From a virus: a stretch of DNA of 22,552 bases. Below are positions 7,686 to 22,552 of this stretch, in pieces. The notes under the pieces were generated by a model that saw only the letters and a program-made list of their open reading frames with translations, was not told the DNA's origin and ran no database searches. Made by a program: the position numbers and the translations under genes. The number at the start of each line of letters is the position of its first letter. Position 1 is the first letter of the stretch. The DNA is taken from IMG/VR virus record IMGVR_UViG_3300024520_005334, positions 1 through 22,552 of that record, one strand, 5' to 3'.

Positions 7686-8749
7686 AATAATTCCTTAATA
7701 GCCGTATTAGGGACTCTGACAATACCCTGTTTAAATACAGCGAGCTTCTGTAGATTTTTCTCCTTCAGTTCTGGATTACCAACAGCCTTTTTCATCATGT
7801 TTCTAATACTATCCATCCTTGGTCTCTTCCATGTAAATTCTCCGCTCCACAAATTCTCTATAGCCCTTTCCGCGTAGATCGCAATCTCATCATAAGTGTC
7901 AATGTAGAAATCATAGTCGGGGAATAGTTTAGTATTGTCAGGTATTATAGGAATACTATTATATGCAATAGCTCTAAGCAAGTTCTGACTTGGTATACAA
8001 TTATATCCTGCATCGATAAAAAAGTCTCCTATTTCGTGGGTATAATTAACTACCTCTGGAGCTAATGTGTCAATGACAATTATGTTGGGATAATAACTAG
8101 GCTGATCAAATATACCTAACTGCTGTTTAAGTCCTGTTACAACCTTTTGAATTTCTGAAGAATTATTACAGGTTACAATAAGGTGTGCGTTGTCGGAAAT
8201 GGAAAAGGTAGAAAGAAATGCCGCCAAGATTTCCTGTAATCCACCCTTTTGATCTAGTGATCCTGTCGTATAGAAAATAGTACCAGTGAGATCGAGGTCC
8301 AGGTTATTTATGGTATTTATCAAAAACATTGGAGGAAAGGGCAGAGCTGTTATCTGGTCTGGCTCTATTCCGGAGTCCACAAGGAGTTCCTTTTCAAAGT
8401 CTGAAAACACTACAATTTTATCCATTAGTCTTAGATGATTAACCCAATCTAATGAATCAATACGACTATCCACCGCGAGGACTCCTATATTGGTGGTGAA
8501 ATCACCGTTATAATTAATGTAGGAGGGGAGGCCGTGTTGTATTAATACATCCTTAGACTCCATTATATTATTTAATTCATATGGCTCTAGGTTCTCTACA
8601 TGTTTAGAGTTCTCTTCTCCGGTAAACCAGATAGGTCTTAGGACTAAATTTATATCTTTTTGAGAAGCTAAGAGAGAGGCAAAAGCTTTGCTAGTGTATC
8701 CCCACTCGTCATTTTGTCTATAAGGTCCGACGTAAAGTACATTTTTCAT
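7673..8749 (-). CDS. GT-B glycosyltransferase-like protein (GT4-like)
   Basis: A 358-residue protein opening MKNVLYVGPYRQNDEWGYTSK, typical of GT4 enzymes with the Gly-rich acceptor loop degenerate. Later blocks are DKIVVFSDFEKELL (about 110-123), the strand TIFYTTGSLDQKGGLQEILAAF (about 156-177), equivalent to the start of the donor domain, and HEIGDFFIDAGYNCIPSQNLLRAIAYNSIPII (about 238-269). In the last block the usual EGFGLP..EAMA is replaced by NCIPSQNLLRAIA. The missing acidic donor-binding residues suggest altered donor use or loss of activity. GAGG lies eight bases before its ATG, which overlaps the upstream stop by four bases. Confidence 0.62.
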   Translation of the reverse strand: MKNVLYVGPYRQNDEWGYTSKAFASLLASQKDINLVLRPIWFTGEENSKHVENLEPYELNNIMESKDVLIQHGLPSYINYNGDFTTNIGVLAVDSRIDSLDWVNHLRLMDKIVVFSDFEKELLVDSGIEPDQITALPFPPMFLINTINNLDLDLTGTIFYTTGSLDQKGGLQEILAAFLSTFSISDNAHLIVTCNNSSEIQKVVTGLKQQLGIFDQPSYYPNIIVIDTLAPEVVNYTHEIGDFFIDAGYNCIPSQNLLRAIAYNSIPIIPDNTKLFPDYDFYIDTYDEIAIYAERAIENLWSGEFTWKRPRMDSIRNMMKKAVGNPELKEKNLQKLAVFKQGIVRVPNTAIKELLCIQ

Positions 8750-11598
8750 TTCTTTAACCTCTTATGAGCCTCTACAATAAAATGCTGGGGCTCCTCAGTT
8801 ACGATACCACAACGTAAGGAATCAAATAAATAGCGGCGTTGAGCCAGATGTGTATATTCGTTATAGAGTGATTCTTGTGTACAAGGGGAGAGATGTCCTG
8901 GGCCGAAAGATGCTCCAAAATTAAGATGCCGGATCATGGCAAGCATTCTATAATTAAATGCCGAGTATTCATCTTGGATGAGTTGGGTGCAAATCCATTC
9001 AGCAAATTGAGGATGGGGTAGATTAGTTGGTGGCGTCTGTGGGATAGGTTTCATAAGAGGAGGTGTCTGCCATTTTCCCTCCTGATCTTTTCTTTCTACT
9101 TTATCTAAATAATTTTCCCATGCCTGGGCAGCTTTATCCCACGAATATCTATCCAAACATCCCTTGCGAGTTGCAAGTCTTTGTTTATTTCGTTTATCTT
9201 TATTCTGTTTAGCACATGATAGCATAGCAGTAGTTAGAGCTTCATTATTAGGGCCGGATCTATCTGCATTAGTTTCTAGTTCTCGGGCTAAATTAGGAGG
9301 AATAGGATAACCTTTAACATATCTTACAACATCTTCCATAGCACTATAATCAATAGCGGCTACAGGTACTCCACAAGCAGATGCTTCAGCACCAGGAAGT
9401 CCAAATCCCTCACAATTATTTGTTGAACATATTCTAGTAGTAAATGTATTATCATTTTGTACAGTAAGACACCACACATCATCGTCATATTCAATTTCCC
9501 TTATTTCTTTAATTTTCATTAAGTGATTTGTCTTGTAATATACATTATTAGTTCCTCTTCTAGTAGAGGACATTTCTCCACTCTTAATATTAAAGCCATA
9601 AATTTCAAATCTATAGCAATCTTTTCTATGACGTTGATCTGTAGTTTTATACTTACTGCGAATTGTCTTACATGTAGAGAATGGAATACGTAGGCGTCTC
9701 AGTATGTCTTTAATTTGCTGAGCCATTTTGGGTGAAATAGTACTAAGTACAGAATAGTTTTTGGCTTCGCAATAATGTCCGTCTCCCATAAACATACCAA
9801 CTAGAATTTCTTTTTGTTTTTCTATTGGTAGCTTCATACACCAGTCGGGTAAACATTTATTTTCCTTTTTACTACACCAATTAGCAAATACTTTATTATG
9901 CAGAATAGAGTATAGGCTATCATCTCTACCTTTTCGATCCTTATAGAATCTGACACTAACCTTATTCAGGCTACTTTTTAATTTATCAAATACCCTAATA
10001 GCTAATGCATGATTATCAGCTTCGTCTATATGTGATGTAATTCTTATTATATACGGAGATGAGGAACTGCCATCCGCAACAAACAACCCTATAAATCTAC
10101 AAAATTCGTTATCTATATCTACATATCTTGGGTAAGTATATCCACCAACCACTTCAATATAGTCATCGGTCACAATATAAGTATCATCTATTTCTTTAGA
10201 CAAATCAATACGATCTATATCTACGACTGAATCATCAATAGGATATAATAACAGATCACCTTTCTTTAGTTGTCCTAATTCATATTTACCGGGTTCTGGT
10301 ATTTTAGATCCATACCTCAGCTTATCACCTAATTTTTCTCTTAAGGATTTAGATTCGTTATGAGGAATTTCATTGCTAGTGTAGGCAGGCAATTCATGAT
10401 TTTCTGTCGCTTTCAGCGTTTCATATTCTCCATAGATTGACAGCTCTAATACTTTCTCATTATGACTCTTAGCCAAATTCTTCCAGACATTAGTAACAGG
10501 CTTCCATCGGGATTTATGCGTCCAAGCTAAATCTCCCACCTTTACTTTTGAGATAGGTATCCATAAGGGCTTATCATCTCTCTTGATTTTAATCTCTTCG
10601 TCTTTTCCTAAGCATATGGCATATTGTACATACAAATCCATAAGATTATAAATCTTCACTAGGTCTTCTGTTTCAACTCCATTGGAAACTCCAGGTAAAA
10701 CAGCACCATAAGTTCCACAATGATCACAGATAGTTAGAGCATCTCTATAATGAGCAACAAAGAATTGTTTGCAATTTTGACATGTGTAAGTGCATAGAAC
10801 TTTAGACCCGATACCATATTCATGAATTAAAGAGGTGAGATCCCAACCTTGTTTTTCGGGATAGTTAGTGTGTAAATATAGAAAAGACTTTTCTGCTATT
10901 TCAGATGGAGCGGCATCAACGAAATCCTTAAAGGACCGCATAAGATCTGGAAACATTTTCCGCTTTTGGTTTCTCATCACTGTTCCAACAATAAAGCTGT
11001 CTCCGGGCAGTCCGAAGGATTGTTTATGCTGTTCTTTATTTAGTATCATCTCAAATACATTACCATCGATTGCTGGTGAGGCACATCCCACAGGAACGAT
11101 ACGGCCATGTGTTTGTTTCTCTAATGTTCTAATACCGTATTCAGAATAAGCTAATAAGCCGTCACATAGATTAAAGTATTGATAAAGCCATTCTAGCTTC
11201 TGGGGCTCCGAGTCAATAGTAGGCATCCAAACCCAATGGAAAAACGGAAGAAATGGACTGTCGGCAATATAACAATCCATCCAAGGATCACGATAGGTTA
11301 CTACAATATCTGGCTTAAAATCTAGACACACTCGTTCAAATCTAGTTATACCCCATTGAATAGCAGGATTATTAGTGTGCTCTGTATTATAATCTGTCTC
11401 GTGACTAAGAGGCCCATTGCAATAAACTAACCAGTCGGTATTATTGAAAGCATCAGGAGAGGCATAACAAGTAAATTCCGCCATATCATATTTCCCAGTC
11501 TTATAGAGACGGGAGAGAATTTCCTTTGAGTATACTCCAAATCCAGAAGATAGTTTTTGTGTTTCTGTGACAAATAGAACACGGGGTTTATTCGACAT
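8746..11598 (-). CDS. GT4 glycosyltransferase interrupted by an intein
   Basis: The 950-residue precursor would give a 550-residue GT4 enzyme after removal of the 400-residue intein (residues 329-728). The N-terminal extein holds the acceptor-side Rossmann domain (PRVLFVTETQKLSSGFGVYSK at the start; DGLLAYSEYGI near 147) and the start of the donor domain (IVGTVMRNQKRK near 203). A zinc ribbon (C273-x2-C276, C291-x2-C294) is inserted in the donor domain, unusual for GT4. The join YVQYAI/CEGFGLPGAEASACGVPV restores the E-x7-E donor motif (E330 and E338 once spliced). A C-terminal extension of about 100 residues rich in Tyr and Phe follows; I do not recognise it. Splicing must occur for an active enzyme. 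It overlaps the sigma gene by 11 bases and heads the sugar cluster. Confidence 0.85.
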   Translation of the reverse strand: MSNKPRVLFVTETQKLSSGFGVYSKEILSRLYKTGKYDMAEFTCYASPDAFNNTDWLVYCNGPLSHETDYNTEHTNNPAIQWGITRFERVCLDFKPDIVVTYRDPWMDCYIADSPFLPFFHWVWMPTIDSEPQKLEWLYQYFNLCDGLLAYSEYGIRTLEKQTHGRIVPVGCASPAIDGNVFEMILNKEQHKQSFGLPGDSFIVGTVMRNQKRKMFPDLMRSFKDFVDAAPSEIAEKSFLYLHTNYPEKQGWDLTSLIHEYGIGSKVLCTYTCQNCKQFFVAHYRDALTICDHCGTYGAVLPGVSNGVETEDLVKIYNLMDLYVQYAICLGKDEEIKIKRDDKPLWIPISKVKVGDLAWTHKSRWKPVTNVWKNLAKSHNEKVLELSIYGEYETLKATENHELPAYTSNEIPHNESKSLREKLGDKLRYGSKIPEPGKYELGQLKKGDLLLYPIDDSVVDIDRIDLSKEIDDTYIVTDDYIEVVGGYTYPRYVDIDNEFCRFIGLFVADGSSSSPYIIRITSHIDEADNHALAIRVFDKLKSSLNKVSVRFYKDRKGRDDSLYSILHNKVFANWCSKKENKCLPDWCMKLPIEKQKEILVGMFMGDGHYCEAKNYSVLSTISPKMAQQIKDILRRLRIPFSTCKTIRSKYKTTDQRHRKDCYRFEIYGFNIKSGEMSSTRRGTNNVYYKTNHLMKIKEIREIEYDDDVWCLTVQNDNTFTTRICSTNNCEGFGLPGAEASACGVPVAAIDYSAMEDVVRYVKGYPIPPNLARELETNADRSGPNNEALTTAMLSCAKQNKDKRNKQRLATRKGCLDRYSWDKAAQAWENYLDKVERKDQEGKWQTPPLMKPIPQTPPTNLPHPQFAEWICTQLIQDEYSAFNYRMLAMIRHLNFGASFGPGHLSPCTQESLYNEYTHLAQRRYLFDSLRCGIVTEEPQHFIVEAHKRLKK
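9415..10614 (-). mobile_element. Intein with LAGLIDADG endonuclease in the GT4 gene
   Basis: 400 residues from Cys1 (codon 10614-10612) to Asn400 (9417-9415), with Cys as +1 residue. Block A opens CLGKDEEIKIK with a following KVKVGDLAW; block B is TENH (70-73). Two LAGLIDADG motifs, FIGLFVADG (174-182, D181) and LVGMFMGDG (271-279, D278), indicate an intact homing endonuclease. Block F is VWCLTVQNDNTFTTRI. The residue before the terminal Asn is Asn, not the usual His, as known in a minority of inteins. The boundaries are fixed by the restored GT4 motif. Confidence 0.9.
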
Positions 11599-12055: not shown

Positions 12056-13681
12056 TTATATAGCTTGAGTTAACTTTTGGGCACTTTTTACTAAAAAACT
12101 TCCTTGATTTTCATCTCGGTTACCTCTTAATAGTAAGATACTGTCCTTTGCTAGAACATTTTTACATTTATCCCATGTTTGTGAAAAGACTGTTGCATTA
12201 TCTAGGGAACAAGTCCCATCAGATACTTTTAAAAAGGCCATTTTTCCGCCCTTATTCTTTCCTCTTTTTATAGTCCATTCCCGCACATCGTTAACTTTTA
12301 CAGCGATAGCAATAGATGGAGATTGAAACCCTTTAATAAATTCTCTACAAGTGCAATTAGCTTGGGTTGTATCATACTCATCTATTTCGGTACAGGTTAA
12401 TTCAACACTTAGATATTCCCTTTCTTGTTTAGCTTTCCATGAGGGTAAATCTATTAAGTCATAGGGGGGCTTATTAAGGGCAACTAGTGCCCCCTTAAAT
12501 AAATCAATAAATTTGTTAGTATGGGCAGTACGTCGTTCGTTAGGTATTTTATCTTTTAATATACTTTCAAGTCCATTTTCCAATGTGGGAAAGTTTCCTT
12601 CCTCTAAGAACTTATGATCGTGCTTGCGAAAGTCACGGTACAGGGCAAAATCATACATCATTTTAGTGCGAGATACATTAAAACAATCAAGTGCTCCAGC
12701 CTTTATAAACCCTTCTAATGAGTCTTTCCTAACATGTCGGCCTAGCTTCATAAGAAACTGATCCCATGAAAATTGGGTTAAATCATACTTCTCTTTTCTT
12801 ATTTTATTTTTTAATTGCAGATAAGCCGATTCACCTACACCCTTAACATTCATCAGTCCATAGCGAGGAGATCCATCAAAAATCTTAAAGGATTTATTCA
12901 TATATAGTATAGATGGAGGCATAATATCTATATCCATAAGCCGGGCATTATTCACTAGCTCCTCAATCTCGTCCGCTGGCTTTATCTTGCCTTTAGCATG
13001 ACGTAGCCATGCTGTGAAAAAGGCTGGGGGAAAATGGGTCTTAGCAAAGGCGGTGAGATAGCCATTATGAGCATAGCTAACAGCGTGAATATAGTTGAAC
13101 GCGTAGCGTTGAGATGCTTCAATCCAGCTAAATATTTCCTGGCCCTCTTCACGAGTTACGATCTGGTGGGCTTCAATTTTATCCAAGAATTGAGCCTTTA
13201 CCTTTGCCATTAATTCTACTTTTTTCTTACCGATAGCTTTACGTAATATTTCGGCCTCGGAGAGATTGTATCCTGCGATATCTTTAGCAATATGTAGTGC
13301 CTCCTCTTGATATACGAGAATACCATAGGTGGCCCTAAGAATTGGTTCTAATGCTGGGTGAAAATATTTTACCTCATCACGGCCATGTTTTCTATCAATA
13401 TAGTGATTAGTTAGGGTTTTTCCTTCCACTAGAGAGTCCATACAGCCAGGACGAAGAATCGCCGTTAGATCAGCTAATTCATTCATATCGTGGGGCTGTG
13501 CTTTACTAGATAGACTTTGACCGAGCTGTGAATCTAGCTGAAAGACACCCTTTGTATTTCCACTACTTATTAATTCCCAGGTATCAGGACAGGTCAGACG
13601 TATCTTATCAAAGTAAGGGGCAAAAATAGGGAGACCCTTATTGTTTTCTTCAAACTGACATCCGCATTTGAATTCTATCAT
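12056..13681 (-). CDS. dnaE: DNA polymerase III alpha subunit, C-terminal part
   Basis: A 541-residue protein equivalent to the second half of bacterial-type replicative polymerase alpha. It starts just after the region that follows the third catalytic Asp. GNTKGVFQLDSQLG (about 41-54), ILRPGCMDSLV (75-85), YGILVYQEE (119-127) and FNYIHAVSYAHNGYL (about 195-209) are fingers-domain motifs. YGLMNVKGVGES near 275-286 is the helix-hairpin-helix segment. The C terminus (about 450-541) resembles the OB-fold region. With the upstream gene's visible 620 residues it adds up to a normal full-length polymerase. There is no intein sequence at its N terminus. Its ATG overlaps the exonuclease stop by four bases, so the two halves are probably made from one transcript and associate as proteins. 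Confidence 0.88.
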   Translation of the reverse strand: MIEFKCGCQFEENNKGLPIFAPYFDKIRLTCPDTWELISSGNTKGVFQLDSQLGQSLSSKAQPHDMNELADLTAILRPGCMDSLVEGKTLTNHYIDRKHGRDEVKYFHPALEPILRATYGILVYQEEALHIAKDIAGYNLSEAEILRKAIGKKKVELMAKVKAQFLDKIEAHQIVTREEGQEIFSWIEASQRYAFNYIHAVSYAHNGYLTAFAKTHFPPAFFTAWLRHAKGKIKPADEIEELVNNARLMDIDIMPPSILYMNKSFKIFDGSPRYGLMNVKGVGESAYLQLKNKIRKEKYDLTQFSWDQFLMKLGRHVRKDSLEGFIKAGALDCFNVSRTKMMYDFALYRDFRKHDHKFLEEGNFPTLENGLESILKDKIPNERRTAHTNKFIDLFKGALVALNKPPYDLIDLPSWKAKQEREYLSVELTCTEIDEYDTTQANCTCREFIKGFQSPSIAIAVKVNDVREWTIKRGKNKGGKMAFLKVSDGTCSLDNATVFSQTWDKCKNVLAKDSILLLRGNRDENQGSFLVKSAQKLTQAI

Positions 13682-14355
13682 CTTGAAAAGGCCCCCTTAA
13701 ATTTATCCACTCTCGACTGTCGTCGTTGGAATTTCATAAACTTCACAAAGATAGCCGCCTCTTCAAATACATCGGCCAAGGCCGAGTGAGCTTGTCCTTC
13801 AGATTGGAGTCCAAGCCAAGGTCGTAATGTATCCATTTGCAAATCAAACGGTTCAGGAAGATGACCTAGCCATGTAAATATCATATCGTAGATATCAACC
13901 TTATTAACCTCTCCCATGGGAAAAGGTGTTTTGTGGGCAGCAGCCAGCCTGCGAGCGATGATAAGATCGTACCCTATAATATTATACCCTACTGGTATCG
14001 GTTGAGGATACCATTGTCCGGGACGCTTGTCAACCATATACTTGGTACAATATGCACAGAAATTTTTCCAGGCGGTTTTCTGATCCATACCATCTTTCCA
14101 TTTTTCAACTACTTCATCGTAGGTGCATTCTGCGTGTTTGGCGTGCCATTCAATCGTTTTAATACGTTCATCATCAAAGTATTCTTCTGTATCAATGCCA
14201 GGAGGGCGAATAACAGTATTAAAGGCATACTGTTTCCTAATCTCTAATGTATCGGGATTGATAGGAACGGCGGCAAGCTCTACTGGGTTACATGTATGAG
14301 GATCTTTACCATCTGTCTCAAAATCTAGGCATAAAAACCATCTAGTGTTTTTCAT
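13678..14355 (-). CDS. DEDDh 3'-5' proofreading exonuclease (DnaQ-like)
   Basis: A 225-residue DEDDh exonuclease. The ATG at 14355 is chosen: it overlaps the previous stop as TAATG and has AGGTGG five bases before it; a GTG at 14364 is the alternative. Motif Exo I is CLDFETDG (D11, E13), Exo II is VGYNIIGYDLII (D130), and Exo III is QAHSALADV (H190, D195). All five catalytic positions are present. It resembles the epsilon subunit and would proofread the split polymerase, between whose genes it lies. The segment after Exo I is longer than in typical epsilon. No clamp-binding motif was recognised. The C terminus is basic (RRQSRVDKFKGAFSR). Confidence 0.85.
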   Translation of the reverse strand: MKNTRWFLCLDFETDGKDPHTCNPVELAAVPINPDTLEIRKQYAFNTVIRPPGIDTEEYFDDERIKTIEWHAKHAECTYDEVVEKWKDGMDQKTAWKNFCAYCTKYMVDKRPGQWYPQPIPVGYNIIGYDLIIARRLAAAHKTPFPMGEVNKVDIYDMIFTWLGHLPEPFDLQMDTLRPWLGLQSEGQAHSALADVFEEAAIFVKFMKFQRRQSRVDKFKGAFSR

Positions 14356-14564
14356 TAAATCCACCTTCTCTTTCCAGGTTCTATATCTTTTATTAATTGA
14401 TATGTTTCATATTGATATCTTTTCTGTTTCATAACCTCGGTTTCTCCATTCCTATATAGTAGCTTTCGCTCTAGTTCGTTATACATACATCTATTGCATT
14501 TAAAAAATAGTAGTGGAGAATAGGCAGACTCAATATAGCCACAGCTAGGACAACTATACATCAT
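14355..14564 (-). CDS. Small zinc-ribbon protein between the polymerase genes
   Basis: A 69-residue protein starting at the ATG at 14564, six bases after a GGGGGAG ribosome binding site; upstream in-frame starts at 14594 and 14570 lack a usable spacing. A zinc ribbon is visible as C5-x2-C8 and C23-x2-C26 (SCPSCG...KCNRCM). The C terminus is basic with many Tyr, Gln and Lys. It overlaps the end of the polymerase N-terminal gene by 11 bases and the exonuclease start by one. This placement suggests a replication-associated DNA-binding or bridging role, but function is unknown. Confidence 0.65.
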   Translation of the reverse strand: MMYSCPSCGYIESAYSPLLFFKCNRCMYNELERKLLYRNGETEVMKQKRYQYETYQLIKDIEPGKRRWI

Positions 14565-16416
14565 ACTCATCTCCCCCGACAATCTTAACAACATCCATCA
14601 ACCGATCTAAAGTAGAAATTCCCAAGCAGTCAAACTTTAACAGTCCAACATCCTCACAACTTGGACCCTCAAATCCCGCCAACTGATGCTCACCGTCCTT
14701 ATCCAATACCATTGGGCATGACTGACTAATAGGATGAGGGGAAATTACAATCCCAGCTGCGTGTCTGCCTGAGATTATTTTTGTATTTTCTAATCTGATG
14801 GCCTGAGCAAATAGTCGGGCCATCTTACCTTCTAATTTACCATCTTCCCCGATAGAGCACCACTCTTTTAGTTTATCATGATTGTTGTCAAGAGCCCAAA
14901 GAATAATAGAGGAGATACCATATTCTTCTTCGATACCTTTTAGCTCATCAGCAATCTTACCTTCGTCTACAATGTGCTTAGTAATAGCATTCTGTTCGGC
15001 AAAGTCAATATTTCCACGAGCACCCATAACTCTCTTGAGAGCAGCACGTCCTTTTAGTGTTTGGAATGTGATAATCTGTGCTACATTATCTTCTCCGTAT
15101 TTTTCACGGATATATTCAACTATTTCAGTCCGAGATGCTTTAGGAACATCAAAATCAATATCGGGCCAAGAGACTTTACCGGGAGTATTTCTACCAGTAT
15201 TGTAGAATCTTTCAAAAATTAAATTATAAGGAATTGGATCAATTTGAGTAATACCAAGTAGGTAGGAGACTATGCAGCTTCCAGCTGAGCCGCGACCGGG
15301 GCCAGTCAAATATCCTCGACTTCTAGTGAACTGTAAAATATCATCAACAATGAGAAAGTAACTAGAGAGATTAATCCCGGTAAATATATCTAGTTCCTGC
15401 TTGACTCGCGAGCCATACTTCTGAAACAATTCTGTACCCGGTTTTACATGTCCCATTTTTTCTGCCCATCCTTGCTGACAGAGATGTCTTAGCCAATCAT
15501 TGGGATCGGCATTATTAGGACAGATAAATTGGGGCGGGTCAGGGGATTTCAAAATATCATACTCTTCACACATATCGGCCACTAAACATGTATTAGCCAG
15601 TTCTTCCTCAGTATGAAATTCGATCATATCCTCATAGGATGGGATGTGATAGTTGTTAGACTTGAAAAAGGTCTCCAAAGTTCTGTTTGCCGTCCCCTTT
15701 TTAATTTCCCGCTGAACTTGGCTCATGGTTTTTTTAAACGAAGTACACAGGAGCACCCGCTGATCCTCAGCATCCTCTCTAGTACAGTAGTGGGCGTCAG
15801 GAGTAGCAACGCACGGTATCCCAGTCACTGTTGAAATTTCCCGCATACATTGACCGACAATCTTAGCGAATGTATTAATGAGGGAATCAATTAGTTGTAC
15901 TTCGATAAAGAAGTTTCCTTTACCAAAGATCGCCTCTAATTCTTTTGCTTTTACTATACCCTCTGATTTCCAGTCCGGCTTAAGTTCATCTCCGTTAGTA
16001 ATAGCGTTAGAAAGGATGGAGCCTAGATGCCCACTAAATGATATGAAATTACCTGTGGTTTCCTTAGCCAATAGCTCCATATCTATACGTGGACGATAGT
16101 AGAAGTGCTCCTTTTTATTAGAAGCGGAAACAAGGTCTAACAGGTCTCCCCATCCTTTTTTATTTTTAGCTAAGATAACTTGGTGATCTAAAGAGCGATT
16201 ATCTCCACTCTTCTCTAGTACTGATCCTTGACATACGTATGCTTCCACTCCCAGTATTGGTTTAAGCTCGGCATCTTTCATCTCACCAAAGAAATCTATT
16301 GCGGCTGACACAGAGCCGTGATCTGATATAGCACAGGCGGACGCCCCAATATCTTGGGTTCGCTTCGCTATATCTTCGCACTGAGATAGTCCATCCAAAA
16401 GTGAATATTCAAACAC
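14554..16416 (-). CDS. dnaE: DNA polymerase III alpha subunit, N-terminal part
   Basis: A 620-residue protein from GTG at 16416, with PHP, palm and thumb. PHP ligands visible are D8 (EYSLLDGL), H33 (SDHG), E58 (GVEAYV), H78, H130, and D207/H209 (PDAHYC). The GPGRGSAGS loop is at 372-380; the catalytic aspartates are D419 and D421 (WPDIDFD) and D596 (LLKFDCLG). All three are in this half; the chain ends 24 residues after D596. The GTG has no clear ribosome binding site. Upstream codons in the same frame (16461 to 16420) encode MDMKRKYTPLHVHS, the start of the canonical PHP motif, then TAA at 16419-16417. The first metal-binding His pair is therefore separated from the rest by nine extra bases. 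Readthrough, bypassing or reinitiation could produce a protein; the alternative is loss of those residues. Confidence 0.87.
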   Translation of the reverse strand: MFEYSLLDGLSQCEDIAKRTQDIGASACAISDHGSVSAAIDFFGEMKDAELKPILGVEAYVCQGSVLEKSGDNRSLDHQVILAKNKKGWGDLLDLVSASNKKEHFYYRPRIDMELLAKETTGNFISFSGHLGSILSNAITNGDELKPDWKSEGIVKAKELEAIFGKGNFFIEVQLIDSLINTFAKIVGQCMREISTVTGIPCVATPDAHYCTREDAEDQRVLLCTSFKKTMSQVQREIKKGTANRTLETFFKSNNYHIPSYEDMIEFHTEEELANTCLVADMCEEYDILKSPDPPQFICPNNADPNDWLRHLCQQGWAEKMGHVKPGTELFQKYGSRVKQELDIFTGINLSSYFLIVDDILQFTRSRGYLTGPGRGSAGSCIVSYLLGITQIDPIPYNLIFERFYNTGRNTPGKVSWPDIDFDVPKASRTEIVEYIREKYGEDNVAQIITFQTLKGRAALKRVMGARGNIDFAEQNAITKHIVDEGKIADELKGIEEEYGISSIILWALDNNHDKLKEWCSIGEDGKLEGKMARLFAQAIRLENTKIISGRHAAGIVISPHPISQSCPMVLDKDGEHQLAGFEGPSCEDVGLLKFDCLGISTLDRLMDVVKIVGGDEYDV

Positions 16417-16461
16417 TTAAGAATGAACATGAAGGGGAGTATATTTACGCTTCATGTCCAT
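16417..16461 (-). other. Interrupted first 14 codons of the polymerase PHP domain
   Basis: From the ATG at 16461, with AAGGA centred 11 bases upstream (16477-16473), the frame reads MDMKRKYTPLHVHS and then TAA (16419-16417). The next codons, GTG TTT, are followed by GAA TAT TCA, so HVHS and EYSLLDG of the conserved PHP motif are separated by exactly nine bases (TAAGTGTTT). TAA is an ordinary stop elsewhere in the window (for example at 851-853), so general recoding of TAA is unlikely. It may be a recoding site, a relic of an excised insertion, or a real truncation. Confidence 0.75.
16427..16457 (-). promoter_or_regulatory. Hairpin over the polymerase start region
   Basis: On the minus-strand transcript ACATGAAG (16457-16450) can pair perfectly with CTTCATGT (16434-16427), an 8-bp stem with a 15-base loop. 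The left arm holds the second possible ATG (16455), and the right arm holds the Leu-His-Val codons of HVHS. It lies seven bases before the TAA. It could hide the start or stall ribosomes ahead of the stop. Seen in sequence; function inferred. Confidence 0.4.
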
Positions 16462-16530
16462 TTTTGATTTGGTCCTTATAGGTGACGACCATTAGTCTAA
16501 TTCGGTCTAGTTTTATTTTAGTAAAATCTA

Positions 16531-16767
16531 TTATCCCAGCAATCCTTTTTTCTTAGTTAATGCTTTTTCAACACCACTAGCACATCCAGGACAAAGATCA
16601 TAACTCTTTACAGTATTTAAGGGTAGGCTATCACCGCACCAGTGAAAATAGTCTGAATTAACTTTTAAAAATGGAGTTTTATTTGATAGAGATACTGCAA
16701 GAATATCTTCATTCTCTTTAATTCTCCTCCCACACTTATCACATTCAAACCGTCTAAATTCAGTCAT
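16531..16767 (-). CDS. Small zinc-binding protein
   Basis: A 78-residue protein with two CxxC knuckles, C9-x2-C12 (ECDKCGRRI) and C59-x2-C62 (LCPGC), plus H42 and C44 between them. This is a pattern common in small phage zinc proteins. GGGAG precedes the ATG with seven bases of spacing. The start overlaps the last base of the nuclease stop (TAATG). It lies between the Cas4-like nuclease and polymerase III alpha, so a replication or recombination role is plausible. The family is not recognised and function is unknown. Confidence 0.65.
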   Translation of the reverse strand: MTEFRRFECDKCGRRIKENEDILAVSLSNKTPFLKVNSDYFHWCGDSLPLNTVKSYDLCPGCASGVEKALTKKKGLLG

Positions 16768-18782
16768 TATTCAACACTCCCTGGCTCTTGATAAAATCCG
16801 TGGATATGTTCCGGATGTTTATAGTGTTCAGTAACCCATTCAATTCCATGCTGCTCAATCATATATTTGATTTGCTCACATTTAGTCATAGGCTGCTTAT
16901 AACGACTGACCTGTCCAAACCTATGTTCCTCAATAGGTTCTACATGAGTATCTTCAAATGTGGTCATTCCGGCATGACACAGCTTGCGGCACTTCCAAGT
17001 TTGCTTCATGTCCTTTTCTCTAATTAATGCGGGACGTTCTGTATTCTTAATCGCCTCGAATCTTTTCCGCAACATCTCTTCTGTTTTTTCTAGGTCTGAA
17101 TCCTGAAAATGAACAGTAAAGGCTCCACCATAGTTAATGAAATATATAGTAACAATGAAGGTTTTAGCTTCAGGATAGAGATGATGGGCTGCGTAGTGAT
17201 ATATGCGTAATTGAGCGTCACTAAAAAGCGAGTGTTGGTCTTTAGTGGCTCCTGTGGCCCAATCCAATCGCTTGCCCGTATTATGAGTGGGGATCATATC
17301 CTTAGTACACAAATATGTATTTGTTGGACTGTCTACCAGAATACATTGTGTTATCATATTCTTGATTTTTGTAATACTACGAATTTGTCTTTTATTTGAT
17401 TTTCCTGGTCCCCAGCTAGGATCTATCCTGTCTGCTTTTCTTGGTAGTAAAAAAGGGTTAATATTGATTGGTCTGAAATGTAAAGGATAGGCATTAACTG
17501 CTAGTCCGAACCCTTTCTGTGTAGTCTTACATTGATTAGGTCTTTGTCCTAAGGACAATAATAGTTCTTTTACATTATCTGATAGTATTCTATTACAATT
17601 AGTGAATACGGCCTGATGTCGGTAAGGATTGGCACCGCCATCACTATCCATTAACCCCCTCAATAGATCCAATCTTTGACTATGGGATGATCTCAAATAC
17701 ATTAATGGGATATGTTTGTTATTTATGACATTTAGTTGTCTTAATAGGGGTGTAATTTTATGTACTGTCTTACTTACACATCTATCTTTTCCTCCGATAT
17801 TATCGCCTACATTATATCCACGCCTCATAATTTCTTCGAACACGAATTCATCACTAGAGGTTATCTCTCCACCCCTATTTCGTCCATCCCCAAGCCATAG
17901 CCCAAAGACATAAGGGTCTATAGGTAAATCGACTTCGTTAAGATCTAGGGGTTTTGCTGTACTAATATTATCTTTTACTTTTAGATCTAAGACATTAACA
18001 ACACTATTATCCTCTAGGGTCCATAGGTGATCCTTATCGCAAATAACAGTGCTGGTATCATCAAATTTAATTTTATAGCATGGCTTCATACTAGGCTGTG
18101 ATTTAGCTAAAACTTTAGTAAGTTGTCCGTCCTTGTCAAAGACCAGATCACCGACACTAATGTCTTCCATAGTTGACCAACCTTTGGCTGTGGGAAGAGG
18201 GGTATCAAGAGGCAATCCTTTCCAATCACATATCTCATACACGCCATCACCACAATCCATGATCAAATCAATCGTACCTTTTAAGGCCAGATGACCCTGG
18301 AGTCGCTCGCCTTCGACAGTGTAATCATACTCTGCCCAATCGAAAGGAAGCTCAAAATCGAAATGGGGCTCGGCAGCTACCACATCACGATTCATGGGAT
18401 CAAACATGCCTTCATTATATTCCAGGGCTTTCCAAACCCATTTTTTGCAGTCTTTAAAATCCTTCTCGTCCCAGGTGTGATGGGTTATCCTGCTAGTATA
18501 GAACATGTACACACGGGAAATGATATCATTGAGGTACTCGGGATCATACTTGTCAGTTAGAACGTCACCAATATCATTGTCCTTAACAATCTTTTCTCCC
18601 TTTTGGATAGCTAACTTACATAAAGCACATATTTCTAATATTTTATGACAGATAGTACCCTTGTCCGCTTTTTTGTTTGACGGTCCTCTTATGCCTAAAA
18701 TATATTCAACCATGTGCTGTTGGGGACAAAACCTATGACAGTTAAAAGAACTACTACGGAAATAAACGATTGGTATAGTCAT
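16767..18782 (-). CDS. Cas4/RecB-like PD-(D/E)XK nuclease interrupted by an intein
   Basis: The 671-residue precursor would give a 358-residue nuclease after removal of residues 189-501. N-terminal FRSSSFNCHRFCPQQH is the opening typical of RecB-family single-strand exonucleases, and KGTICHKILE (about 41-50) holds the conserved His of motif I. GTIDLIMDCGD (169-179) gives the motif II Asp (D172). EICDWK/TGKRLDW restores motif III (D186-W-K188) and the following TGK when the intein is removed. SDAQLRIYHYAAH is the downstream Gln-Tyr motif of the family. Cys residues near both ends (C15, C19 and KCRKLC) could bind an iron-sulfur cluster, as in Cas4/AddB, but this is uncertain. It would trim DNA ends in replication or recombination. 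It lies one base from the dNMP kinase stop. Confidence 0.85.
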   Translation of the reverse strand: MTIPIVYFRSSSFNCHRFCPQQHMVEYILGIRGPSNKKADKGTICHKILEICALCKLAIQKGEKIVKDNDIGDVLTDKYDPEYLNDIISRVYMFYTSRITHHTWDEKDFKDCKKWVWKALEYNEGMFDPMNRDVVAAEPHFDFELPFDWAEYDYTVEGERLQGHLALKGTIDLIMDCGDGVYEICDWKGLPLDTPLPTAKGWSTMEDISVGDLVFDKDGQLTKVLAKSQPSMKPCYKIKFDDTSTVICDKDHLWTLEDNSVVNVLDLKVKDNISTAKPLDLNEVDLPIDPYVFGLWLGDGRNRGGEITSSDEFVFEEIMRRGYNVGDNIGGKDRCVSKTVHKITPLLRQLNVINNKHIPLMYLRSSHSQRLDLLRGLMDSDGGANPYRHQAVFTNCNRILSDNVKELLLSLGQRPNQCKTTQKGFGLAVNAYPLHFRPININPFLLPRKADRIDPSWGPGKSNKRQIRSITKIKNMITQCILVDSPTNTYLCTKDMIPTHNTGKRLDWATGATKDQHSLFSDAQLRIYHYAAHHLYPEAKTFIVTIYFINYGGAFTVHFQDSDLEKTEEMLRKRFEAIKNTERPALIREKDMKQTWKCRKLCHAGMTTFEDTHVEPIEEHRFGQVSRYKQPMTKCEQIKYMIEQHGIEWVTEHYKHPEHIHGFYQEPGSVE
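17280..18218 (-). mobile_element. Class 3-type (WCT) intein with LAGLIDADG endonuclease in the nuclease gene
   Basis: 313 residues from Gly1 (codon 18218-18216) to Asn313 (17282-17280), with Thr at +1. The first residue is Gly, so a standard N-terminal nucleophile is absent. Trp66 in block B (CDKDHLWTL), Cys292 in block F (TQCILVDSP) and Thr at +1 form the WCT set of class 3 inteins, in which the block F Cys starts splicing. The end is MIPTHN. LAGLIDADG motifs are FGLWLGDG (about 105-112) and LLRGLMDSDG (185-194). The position between DWK and TGK of the nuclease motif fixes both boundaries. Confidence 0.88.
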
Positions 18783-20012: not shown

Positions 20013-21172
20013 AAATCTAACTCCTTAGCCTTATCTATCCAGGGTTGAATATCAGCTGTAACCCTATCCACACTTAGTTCAGCAACATCGTTACTAGTCA
20101 GTGTTGGAAAATACATGCGGTATGTTCGGCAGCATGTATCATTAATCCTTTTAGCGGCTTCTTGTCCAGCCCCATCATTATCTGTTAGTACAATAATAGA
20201 AAGAGCACCAGACTCATCTATTAATTGTTTTTGATCATCATTTAAAACCGTTCCAAAAATCGCCACCGCATTATGAATTCCAGCCTCTTCCAATCTCCAA
20301 ACATTTCCAGGCGACTCTACCAGGACAACTACTCCACTCTTTTTTATATGCTTAAGTGCTTTCCAATAGTTATAAAGAACCTTCTCCTTTTCAAATCCTT
20401 TAGTATGCCACCATTTAGGAAAGAAGTAGCAGTCTTTTTGGGGATTATGATACTGTTTACATTCCTTACATTTTTCAAAGATACTTCTTCCAGTAAATCC
20501 TAAGATCTTTGATCCGTCCTCTGTAAGGATAGGAACCATTGCTCTATTGTACATTGGTTTGCCAAACGTTTTACAAGTCCCCACACCATACTCATTTAAA
20601 ACCTCTATTGAATAACCCCTCTTTAAATAGTAGTCTGAGGGGATACTCACTTTTGACCGGTAAAAATCTACATCAATAAGTCCTTTAGGAGCTTCTCGTC
20701 CCGCTGTCATATTTACAATACGACAAAAGTCTTGATGATCCGTATTATATTTCTCTCCCTTTTTTAAATTAGAAAAAGAAAGTTCAAATCGTCTCAATAA
20801 AAAATCAATAGTATCATCTAAAGAAACTTCTTTGTCACCCGGAGTGGTCCAGTCGTGTCTTATATGAGATAGTCCTCCTCTGACTAAGCTGAGGATGGAT
20901 GTTCCAAAATGAGACTCGCATTCATGTGTCCTACACTTAAAGTGTACTCTGTAATCTGCGTTATAATATAAATTTAATGCGGATCTATTGTCGCCGCCGT
21001 GAATAAAGCATGAAGAAAAAATAACTTTAGACCCGCGATTCCACCTGACATCAAAATAGTCATAGAGGTTTTCAATTCGATCTAGAGTAATATCACATAA
21101 GGTATTGATTTTTTGCTGGTCAGTATACTTAGAACGCCACGTCTTCTTCTTCATTATCATATCCTGTGTCAT
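20009..21172 (-). CDS. DnaG-like DNA primase with TOPRIM domain
   Basis: A 387-residue primase. The ATG at 21172 has GGAGGA seven bases upstream; the earlier ATG at 21193 would overlap the helicase by 65 bases without such a site. An N-terminal zinc-binding segment is visible as SSCFIHGGDN and HFKCRTHECE (C55, H58, C80, C85). The central part includes YYLKRGYSIEVLNEYGVG and YNRAMVPIL (the RNA-polymerase-like N-terminal fold of DnaG). The TOPRIM core is VVVLVESPGNVWRL (E286) and IIVLTDNDGAGQEA (D331, D333). An additional Cys cluster KCKECKQYHNPQKDC (about 234-248) is likely a second zinc site. It would make RNA primers for lagging-strand synthesis with the adjacent helicase. There is no helicase-binding C-terminal domain of usual DnaG length. 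Confidence 0.85.
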   Translation of the reverse strand: MTQDMIMKKKTWRSKYTDQQKINTLCDITLDRIENLYDYFDVRWNRGSKVIFSSCFIHGGDNRSALNLYYNADYRVHFKCRTHECESHFGTSILSLVRGGLSHIRHDWTTPGDKEVSLDDTIDFLLRRFELSFSNLKKGEKYNTDHQDFCRIVNMTAGREAPKGLIDVDFYRSKVSIPSDYYLKRGYSIEVLNEYGVGTCKTFGKPMYNRAMVPILTEDGSKILGFTGRSIFEKCKECKQYHNPQKDCYFFPKWWHTKGFEKEKVLYNYWKALKHIKKSGVVVLVESPGNVWRLEEAGIHNAVAIFGTVLNDDQKQLIDESGALSIIVLTDNDGAGQEAAKRINDTCCRTYRMYFPTLTSNDVAELSVDRVTADIQPWIDKAKELDL

Positions 21173-22552
21173 CGTATGATCCTCCAGCCTCAAGCTCTAA
21201 GGCAGTAGCTCCTTCGATCAGCTTAGCATATTTCCCCTGCATTAGCACATTAATATAATCTCCCGCCTCTAGTCCTTCACCATGACGAGCAATAATAGGA
21301 ACAAGCTTTCTATTGCCGTGTTCGGTCCCATCCTTAGCTATTTCTTCATCTGATTTTTCTTTATAGATAGCAAAGTTAGAACAGAGCCACATAATCCTAT
21401 CTGATCCACTAGCGGCGTCAGTAGACTCCTTGGTTATTCCATCTCTATTTAATTGAATAAAACAAAGGATAGGTACTTCATAACGTAGAGCAAAATTATG
21501 GAGAGCAGTCATCATAAAGCCTAGCAGTTGAAACTCTTTCATATCTGTTTTAGCTAGTTCGGATGCCTCCATCAATTTCAGATAGTCATATATAATTACG
21601 CAGTCCTTAGCTTTGCCTAGATCATTTAGACCAACAGTCTTCGCAATCCACCGTCTCATAATTGATAACTGATCTTCAAATGCTCTACCACCGATATTTT
21701 TATAATAGAAGGGTAAGGTTTTTTTCGTCTTGGCCAGGTTAATTAATTCATTTTTACGGACCTCATTGGAGGCAAACTGGCCTGTTTCAATATCATTAAT
21801 TGTAGACTTTCCAGCGGTATCATAAGAGATCATAGCCCCGCCTCGACTTTGCTGATCCTTTTTAGTCATTTCCGTATCAAGGTAAAGTATAGGGGTGTCT
21901 CTCTCAGCAATTGAGATTCCTGCGTTCAAGCCATAAATCGACTTCCCACAGTTATGAGTGACTATAAAATGGTCTGTCATAAAAAGACCGTCGTTCTCTT
22001 CTAATGTTAAACATCTAGCATTGTCCTGTCCTAAATATTCAATTTTAGTTATTGTACGCTTTAGATCGCCGATTTTTCTGTTGGTAAAGTTATCTCTCTT
22101 ACGTGAAAGAGAAAATGGAATAATATCCTTAGGAAGTCTGATCTCGCATGAATAGGATTTAAAGCTCTTACCGTTACAGGTAGTGGTTTGCCTATTCATA
22201 GAGCATAATCCACCAAGAGAATGAACAATCTCTTTTACGTCCTTACATAACTGACTGGAAACTGAGATAAATTTAGTTCTAGATGTTTTAGATAATGGAT
22301 CAATAGAACAGCTTCCGTCAGAATCAAATAATCCTCTTAGTGTATTTAATCTTATCTCTTGCGTATTATATATATAATTTTTAGGAATAAATTTTGAATA
22401 ACAGTTGTGACCAAAGATACCAACCTCTCGTAATCTGTTTTGAAATCCATTAACTCTATATGTAGTGGCTTTACTTGCTTTTCTTTCAAATTTTACCTCA
22501 AATCCTTCTCTGGTAAAATAATCTTTAAGAGTCTCATGTATTTCATCATCCA
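21129..22552 (-). CDS. DnaB/RecA-like replicative helicase with intein (5' end outside window)
   Basis: The frame is open to the right edge, so the gene begins outside the window; an ATG at 22199 is internal to the intein. The visible extein starts at Cys(+1) CGKSIYGLNAGI, the second half of the Walker A loop. ILYLDTEMTKKDQQSR follows. Walker B is DCVIIYDYLKL, then CFIQLNRDG (motif for NTP sensing and DNA contact) and ASGSDRIMWL. These fit the RecA-type core of a replicative DnaB-family helicase. The C terminus is acidic (DDTGYDNEEEDVAF). It would unwind the replication fork and work with the primase whose gene overlaps its end. It is inactive unless the intein is spliced, because the P-loop is interrupted. 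Confidence 0.85.
   Translation of the reverse strand, partial: DDEIHETLKDYFTREGFEVKFERKASKATTYRVNGFQNRLREVGIFGHNCYSKFIPKNYIYNTQEIRLNTLRGLFDSDGSCSIDPLSKTSRTKFISVSSQLCKDVKEIVHSLGGLCSMNRQTTTCNGKSFKSYSCEIRLPKDIIPFSLSRKRDNFTNRKIGDLKRTITKIEYLGQDNARCLTLEENDGLFMTDHFIVTHNCGKSIYGLNAGISIAERDTPILYLDTEMTKKDQQSRGGAMISYDTAGKSTINDIETGQFASNEVRKNELINLAKTKKTLPFYYKNIGGRAFEDQLSIMRRWIAKTVGLNDLGKAKDCVIIYDYLKLMEASELAKTDMKEFQLLGFMMTALHNFALRYEVPILCFIQLNRDGITKESTDAASGSDRIMWLCSNFAIYKEKSDEEIAKDGTEHGNRKLVPIIARHGEGLEAGDYINVLMQGKYAKLIEGATALELEAGGSYDDTGYDNEEEDVAF
21951..22552 (-). mobile_element. Intein (C-terminal part) in the helicase P-loop
   Basis: About 200 residues of intein run in frame from the right edge to Asn at 21953-21951, with Cys at +1. 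Before the visible ATG at 22199 the frame reads LNTLRGLFDSDGSCS, a LAGLIDADG motif, followed by VSSQLCKDVKEIVHSLGG, typical of the helix after it. The end is FMTDHFIVTHN, with the usual penultimate His. Its N-terminal splice block and probably the first LAGLIDADG motif are outside the window. It interrupts Walker A just before CGKS. Confidence 0.88.

Follow-up and report, generated by a model that had tools for sequence, protein, structure and literature searches.

To our knowledge, there is essentially one bacteriophage gene for which natural programmed translational bypassing has been worked out in detail. T4 gene 60 combines a 5' stem-loop with a take-off codon that is followed by a stop codon inside a stem-loop (PMC5009743, PMC11194080). 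Like gene 60, the locus described here carries a noncoding insert in a phage replication gene, has a take-off codon followed by a stop, a 5' stem-loop just upstream and a stop codon within a take-off stem-loop (both stem-loops being predicted here), and would have translation resume in a frame that is independent of the gap length. It differs from gene 60 in gene and phage group, in the size of the insert (7 to 9 bases here, 50 bases in gene 60), in its very short leader peptide and in lacking a matched landing codon that would restore the motif exactly. With NrdA of Aeh1 and gp43A/B of Aeromonas phage 25, it has in common that a conserved enzyme gene is divided into separate reading frames; here, however, the first part comprises only 14 codons, the junction is spanned by hairpins and the parts are not separated by an endonuclease gene. 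Finally, as in erm-type leader-peptide attenuators, a short open reading frame (ORF) overlaps mutually exclusive hairpins ahead of the main ORF, but the leader in this case encodes the conserved N terminus of the enzyme itself.

The window, i.e., the entire 22,552-nucleotide stretch of viral DNA analyzed (IMG/VR record IMGVR_UViG_3300024520_005334), contains a gene for the alpha subunit of DNA polymerase III (Table 1), for which the initial annotation had reported nine extra bases with an in-frame TAA in the PHP metal motif. Our reading of the minus strand from the ATG at 16461 to 16459 agrees: 14 sense codons, ending at 16420, are followed by TAA (16419 to 16417), GTG (16416 to 16414), TTT (16413 to 16411) and then GAA (from 16410), the junction being CAT GTT CAT TCT TAAGTGTTT GAA TAT TCA CTT TTG GAT GG. 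EYSLLDGL directly follows the insert, and after this single stop the frame stays open down to 14554. The upstream 14-codon ORF is homologous to the alpha N terminus of all relatives. A second contig (IMGVR_UViG_3300024518_002703), whose 6,990-base overlap with the window shows 100% identity, also carries the insert, which argues against a random assembly slip; as this contig may stem from a sibling sample that contains the virus too, it does not count as an independent lineage. No close copy of the insert plus its flanks was found elsewhere within the window, Rfam and tRNA searches returned no match, and comparison of the leader with annotated phages revealed no similarity.

Table 1. Coordinates of the features at the interrupted polymerase locus
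Feature	Coordinates	Strand	Remarks
Upstream ORF, MDMKRKYTPLHVHS	16417..16461	minus	14 sense codons, then TAA; HxH ligands of the PHP site
Insert, TAAGTGTTT (stop codon, GTG, TTT)	16411..16419	minus	No counterpart in insert-less relatives
DNA polymerase III alpha, N-terminal part (PHP and palm), 3' of the insert	14554..16416	minus	Pfam PHP, 1.2e-28; DNA_pol3_alpha, 8e-67
DnaQ-like 3'-5' exonuclease	13678..14364	minus	Pfam RNase_T / Rv2179c-like; present in listed syntenic relatives
DNA polymerase III alpha, C-terminal part (fingers, HhH, OB), separate gene	12056..13681	minus	DNA_pol3_finger, 2e-41
Leader hairpin SL-A, GGTC..GACC	16471..16490	minus	Shared with L041 (GGTCGTNNNNNATAAGGACCAA)
Hairpin SL-B, ATGGACATGAA paired with TTCATGTTCAT	16423..16461	minus	Predicted
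Hairpin SL-C, TTCATTC..AAGTG-loop-CACTT..GGATGGA	16390..16427	minus	Predicted

A comparison with related phages, as proposed in the initial annotation, covered nine syntenic phages first and then 80 plus 25 further loci, many of which represent the same contigs. Essentially all of the approximately 100 other relatives have a gapless HxHS-EYSLL; the insert-less loci (within L001 to L009, L018 to L097, and L222 to L246) read H[V/C]HS-EYSLL, apart from a few substitutions and a single locus that is truncated ahead of the motif. The sole exception is L041 (IMGVR_UViG_3300010234_000274; 64% identical protein), in which 7 bases, TGAGTGA, are present at exactly the same position as the insert in the window (CAT GTC CAT TCA TGAGTGA GAA TAT TCA CTT TTG GAT GG). 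In L041, the upstream and downstream frames are out of register, with a main-frame TGA directly before GAA, and the main reading frame is intact (610 residues), as it is in the window. The insertion is therefore "in-frame" in the window, with its 9 bases, as originally described, but this is an incidental property, since the L041 insert has 7. Because inserts of 9 and 7 bases occupy the same site, frame-preserving explanations fail: alternative decoding of the stop or plain readthrough, the latter also put forward in the initial annotation, requires the same frame and as a shared mechanism would run out of frame in L041.

Two scans, one of IMG/VR for the motif with an insert and one for the precise 20-base sequence that follows the insert, each returned only the window virus and L041. 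The only match in bacterial and archaeal genomes was an ordinary HLHVHSEYS gene, and a covariance model search of 60 sources yielded no third carrier. L220, L221, and L247 were rejected as carriers, being chance matches or ordinary HLHVHS-EYS genes, as were, among the matches listed, the other screened candidates except L013. An apparent second frameshift in L041, in the C-terminal alpha part, turned out to be merely a scaffold join at an N gap.

Between 12056 and 16461, alpha is split into two genes with the gene for the DnaQ-like exonuclease, a possible back-up proofreader, between them, an arrangement also found in relatives; in Rossellomorea phage phiT1, alpha is likewise encoded by two genes (gp20 and gp18). 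Both the domains and the nine-ligand signature (after PMC12926913) are those of a C-family polymerase (DnaE) with a PHP domain. Once both ORFs are read together, the window has the HHDHEHHDH signature of the DNA polymerase III alpha PHP domain, and all nine metal ligands are kept in the window and in L041 if the HxH of the upstream peptide is counted, although the stop separates that HxH, on its upstream side, from the reading unit that holds the other ligands. Every downstream ligand listed in the initial annotation was found to be present. Several insert-less relatives, L077 (HHSYDNQDH), L236 (RHRYDNSNH), L238, L240, and L245, have lost many PHP ligands while the polymerase frame was kept, indicating that the site degenerates once it is dispensable.

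Elsewhere in the window, intein-like insertions are found in genes encoding a glycosyltransferase (8746 to 11598), a PD-(D/E)XK nuclease (16767 to 18782), and a DnaB helicase (21129 to 22552); two genes have LAGLIDADG/intein Pfam matches, and several relatives have uninterrupted homologues of the three. A 78-residue CxxC-type ORF (16531 to 16767) is located between the nuclease gene and the alpha gene, which abut each other in many relatives. In the nuclease gene of L005 (5525 to 5530), TGA-ATG is found where the near-identical L006 has AGA-ATG, a single nonsense change.

The alpha tree does not unite the two carriers as sisters: the window groups with L018 to L021 and L041 is placed at the base of the group formed by L023 to L036, and a clade of the window and L041 was rejected (AU test, p=0.00026). 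They have in common a block made up of the leader pieces AAACTAGAC, GGTCGT, and ATAAGGACCAA (GGTCGT..ATAAGGACCAA in both leaders), the start ATGGRCATGAA, and the core T[A/G]AGTG. In addition, the 21 bases after the insert are identical (7/7 codons), the background codon identity between the two genes being 46.5%; among 1,924 insert-less pairs of 58 to 70% identity, which are not mutually independent, none is identical at all seven of these codons and a single pair is identical at six. Within YTPLHVHS, 4 of the 8 codons differ silently between the carriers, leaving the protein unchanged, and since this silent divergence upstream of the insert equals the gene background, the shared block was not exchanged recently. 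As judged from the sequences, the element would derive either from a common ancestor, followed by at least two losses, or from an ancient transfer between lineages.

SL-A, SL-B, and SL-C are to be regarded as predictions, because they come from two sequences, between which no both-sided compensatory changes occur in the hairpins. SL-A frames the Shine-Dalgarno sequence AAGGA (16477 to 16473), which lies on its 3' side. In SL-B (-14.4 and -13.3 kcal/mol), the start-codon region pairs with the LHVH codons and the 3' arm extends up to, but does not include, TCT, the last sense codon; L041 retains all 11 pairs and shows two compatible changes, both one-sided. SL-C, of which all 12 pairs are retained in L041, has the stop codon in its 5' arm and a TTG (16398 to 16396) on its 3' side. 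Its z-score is -4.7 for the window, -4.2 for L041, and approximately 0 for the three insert-less relatives that were folded; the observed energy was reached by 0.7% and 1.9% of shuffled inserts and, when the flanks were synonymously recoded, in less than 0.1% of cases. SL-B and SL-C overlap, and their outer pairs are mutually exclusive. In both carriers, the start-codon hairpin ends at the last sense codon and the second hairpin begins in the stop codon; the three folded relatives without the insert do not have these conserved hairpins.

We tentatively favor reading the insert not as a broken allele but as an ancient RNA recoding element, which would be passed by programmed translational bypassing as in T4 gene 60, although we rate its chance as somewhat below even. 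What would be new, and is put forward with the same reserve, is that a phage replicative polymerase may be produced by structure-guided bypassing of a 7-to-9-base, stop-containing gap in the PHP catalytic motif; that such bypassing is conserved across two distant phages, as a natural case like gene 60 with a far shorter gap, is likewise a possibility that we would not yet call probable. Ribosomes would start at the ATG at 16461 on the conserved Shine-Dalgarno sequence (about -4.5 kcal/mol in both carriers), make M-x-M-K-x-x-YTPLHVHS and arrive with Ser-tRNA on TCT or TCA in the P site and the stop codon in the A site, flanked by the predicted hairpins, with SL-B folding behind the ribosome and SL-C beginning in the stop codon. 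A fraction of the ribosomes would then slip past the stop-containing stretch and take up translation again in the main frame, giving an alpha that keeps the HxH ligands. Consistent with this, the putative take-off codon is followed at once by a stop in both carriers (TCT-TAA in the window, TCA-TGA in L041), and SL-B and SL-C are predicted in both as the 5' and take-off stem-loops. A candidate landing codon is the TCA of EYS, the sole main-frame Ser codon near the insert in both phages, which matches the take-off codon exactly in L041 and by wobble in the window; landing there would delete three residues and yield HVHS-LLDG. Landing directly before GAA would restore the exact HVHS-EYSLLDG, but no matching codon is found there.

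Bypassing is supported by the occurrence of the insert at the same site in two non-sister phages, by the leader, the hairpins, and the 7/7 identical codons, by the constancy of the YTPLHVHS peptide in the face of silent changes, by the preservation of the ligands on long branches, and by the poor Shine-Dalgarno sequences downstream in the window; bypassing would account for the persistence of HVHS and the other ligands. Against it, a match to the take-off codon and exact restoration of the motif are not combined in any landing codon, the 14-residue upstream peptide is too short for a distant nascent-peptide signal of the gene 60 type, and the independent sequences known number two. The conservation of HVHS could also partly reflect RNA pairing instead of selection on the protein.

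Reinitiation after short ORFs is common, and termination-reinitiation, over which we place bypassing slightly ahead, is a serious contender. The ribosome would end the 14-codon ORF and restart nearby, at GTG or TTG in the window and at TTG or ATG in L041, to produce a truncated alpha and hence a split polymerase; the short peptide would supply the first PHP strand in trans, be lost, or serve as an attenuating leader with a two-hairpin switch. This is mechanistically simpler than bypassing, and a main-frame TTG indeed follows shortly after the stop in both carriers (18 nt on in the window; 16 nt on in L041, with a weak Shine-Dalgarno sequence, -4.5). The competition between SL-B and SL-C is as in leader attenuators, and there are known cases of phage enzymes that are split and reassemble (NrdA of Aeh1 and gene 43 of phage 25; PMC2988022). 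In the window, however, the GTG has no Shine-Dalgarno sequence and the TTG almost none, so that neither has a good ribosome-binding site, and restart at the GTG abutting the stop, as suggested in the initial annotation, drops out as a shared mechanism, this GTG being out of frame in L041. Moreover, the product would be devoid of HxH, yet the other seven ligands are intact, a retention that is unexplained unless the peptide works in trans. In Mtb DnaE1, mutation of PHP metal ligands reduces stability (PMC5636811).

A recent loss-of-function insert in each lineage, with the DEDDh exonuclease or a host polymerase as a substitute, is unlikely: while single nonsense changes are seen in contigs of this kind (AGA to TGA in the L005 nuclease gene) and PHP function was lost in some relatives, the site, core sequence, hairpin, and leader are all common to two non-sister phages, and silent divergence at gene background upstream of the insert (4/8 codons) implies that the block is not recent. 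We give still less credence to a scar left behind by a mobile element since lost, be it an intron, an intein, or a transposon; the phage is rich in inteins and the gene 60 gap may itself stem from a degenerate intron (PMC5009743), but no transposon target duplication was found in the insert flanks, no relative has an element at this site, and a scar would concern the origin of the insert, being silent on how the gene is expressed and compatible with bypassing. An assembly or population artifact, under which most genomes would lack the insert, is very improbable: although the contigs are metagenomic and the L041 scaffold has N gaps at other places, the window sequence is the same in two contigs and a homologous insert is found in a distant phage. 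From the explanations originally listed, bypassing and reinitiation thus survive, a recent null allele or an assembly error being unlikely in view of the second contig and the L041 insert.

If bypassing is true, the locus would provide a second, very short, conserved element in an essential polymerase, making hairpin, take-off, and landing rules comparable, and would subject replication or proofreading to a translational switch. If reinitiation takes place instead, a catalytic domain would have an unusually small part split off. On either reading, genes that look like pseudogenes in viral metagenomes may be functional.
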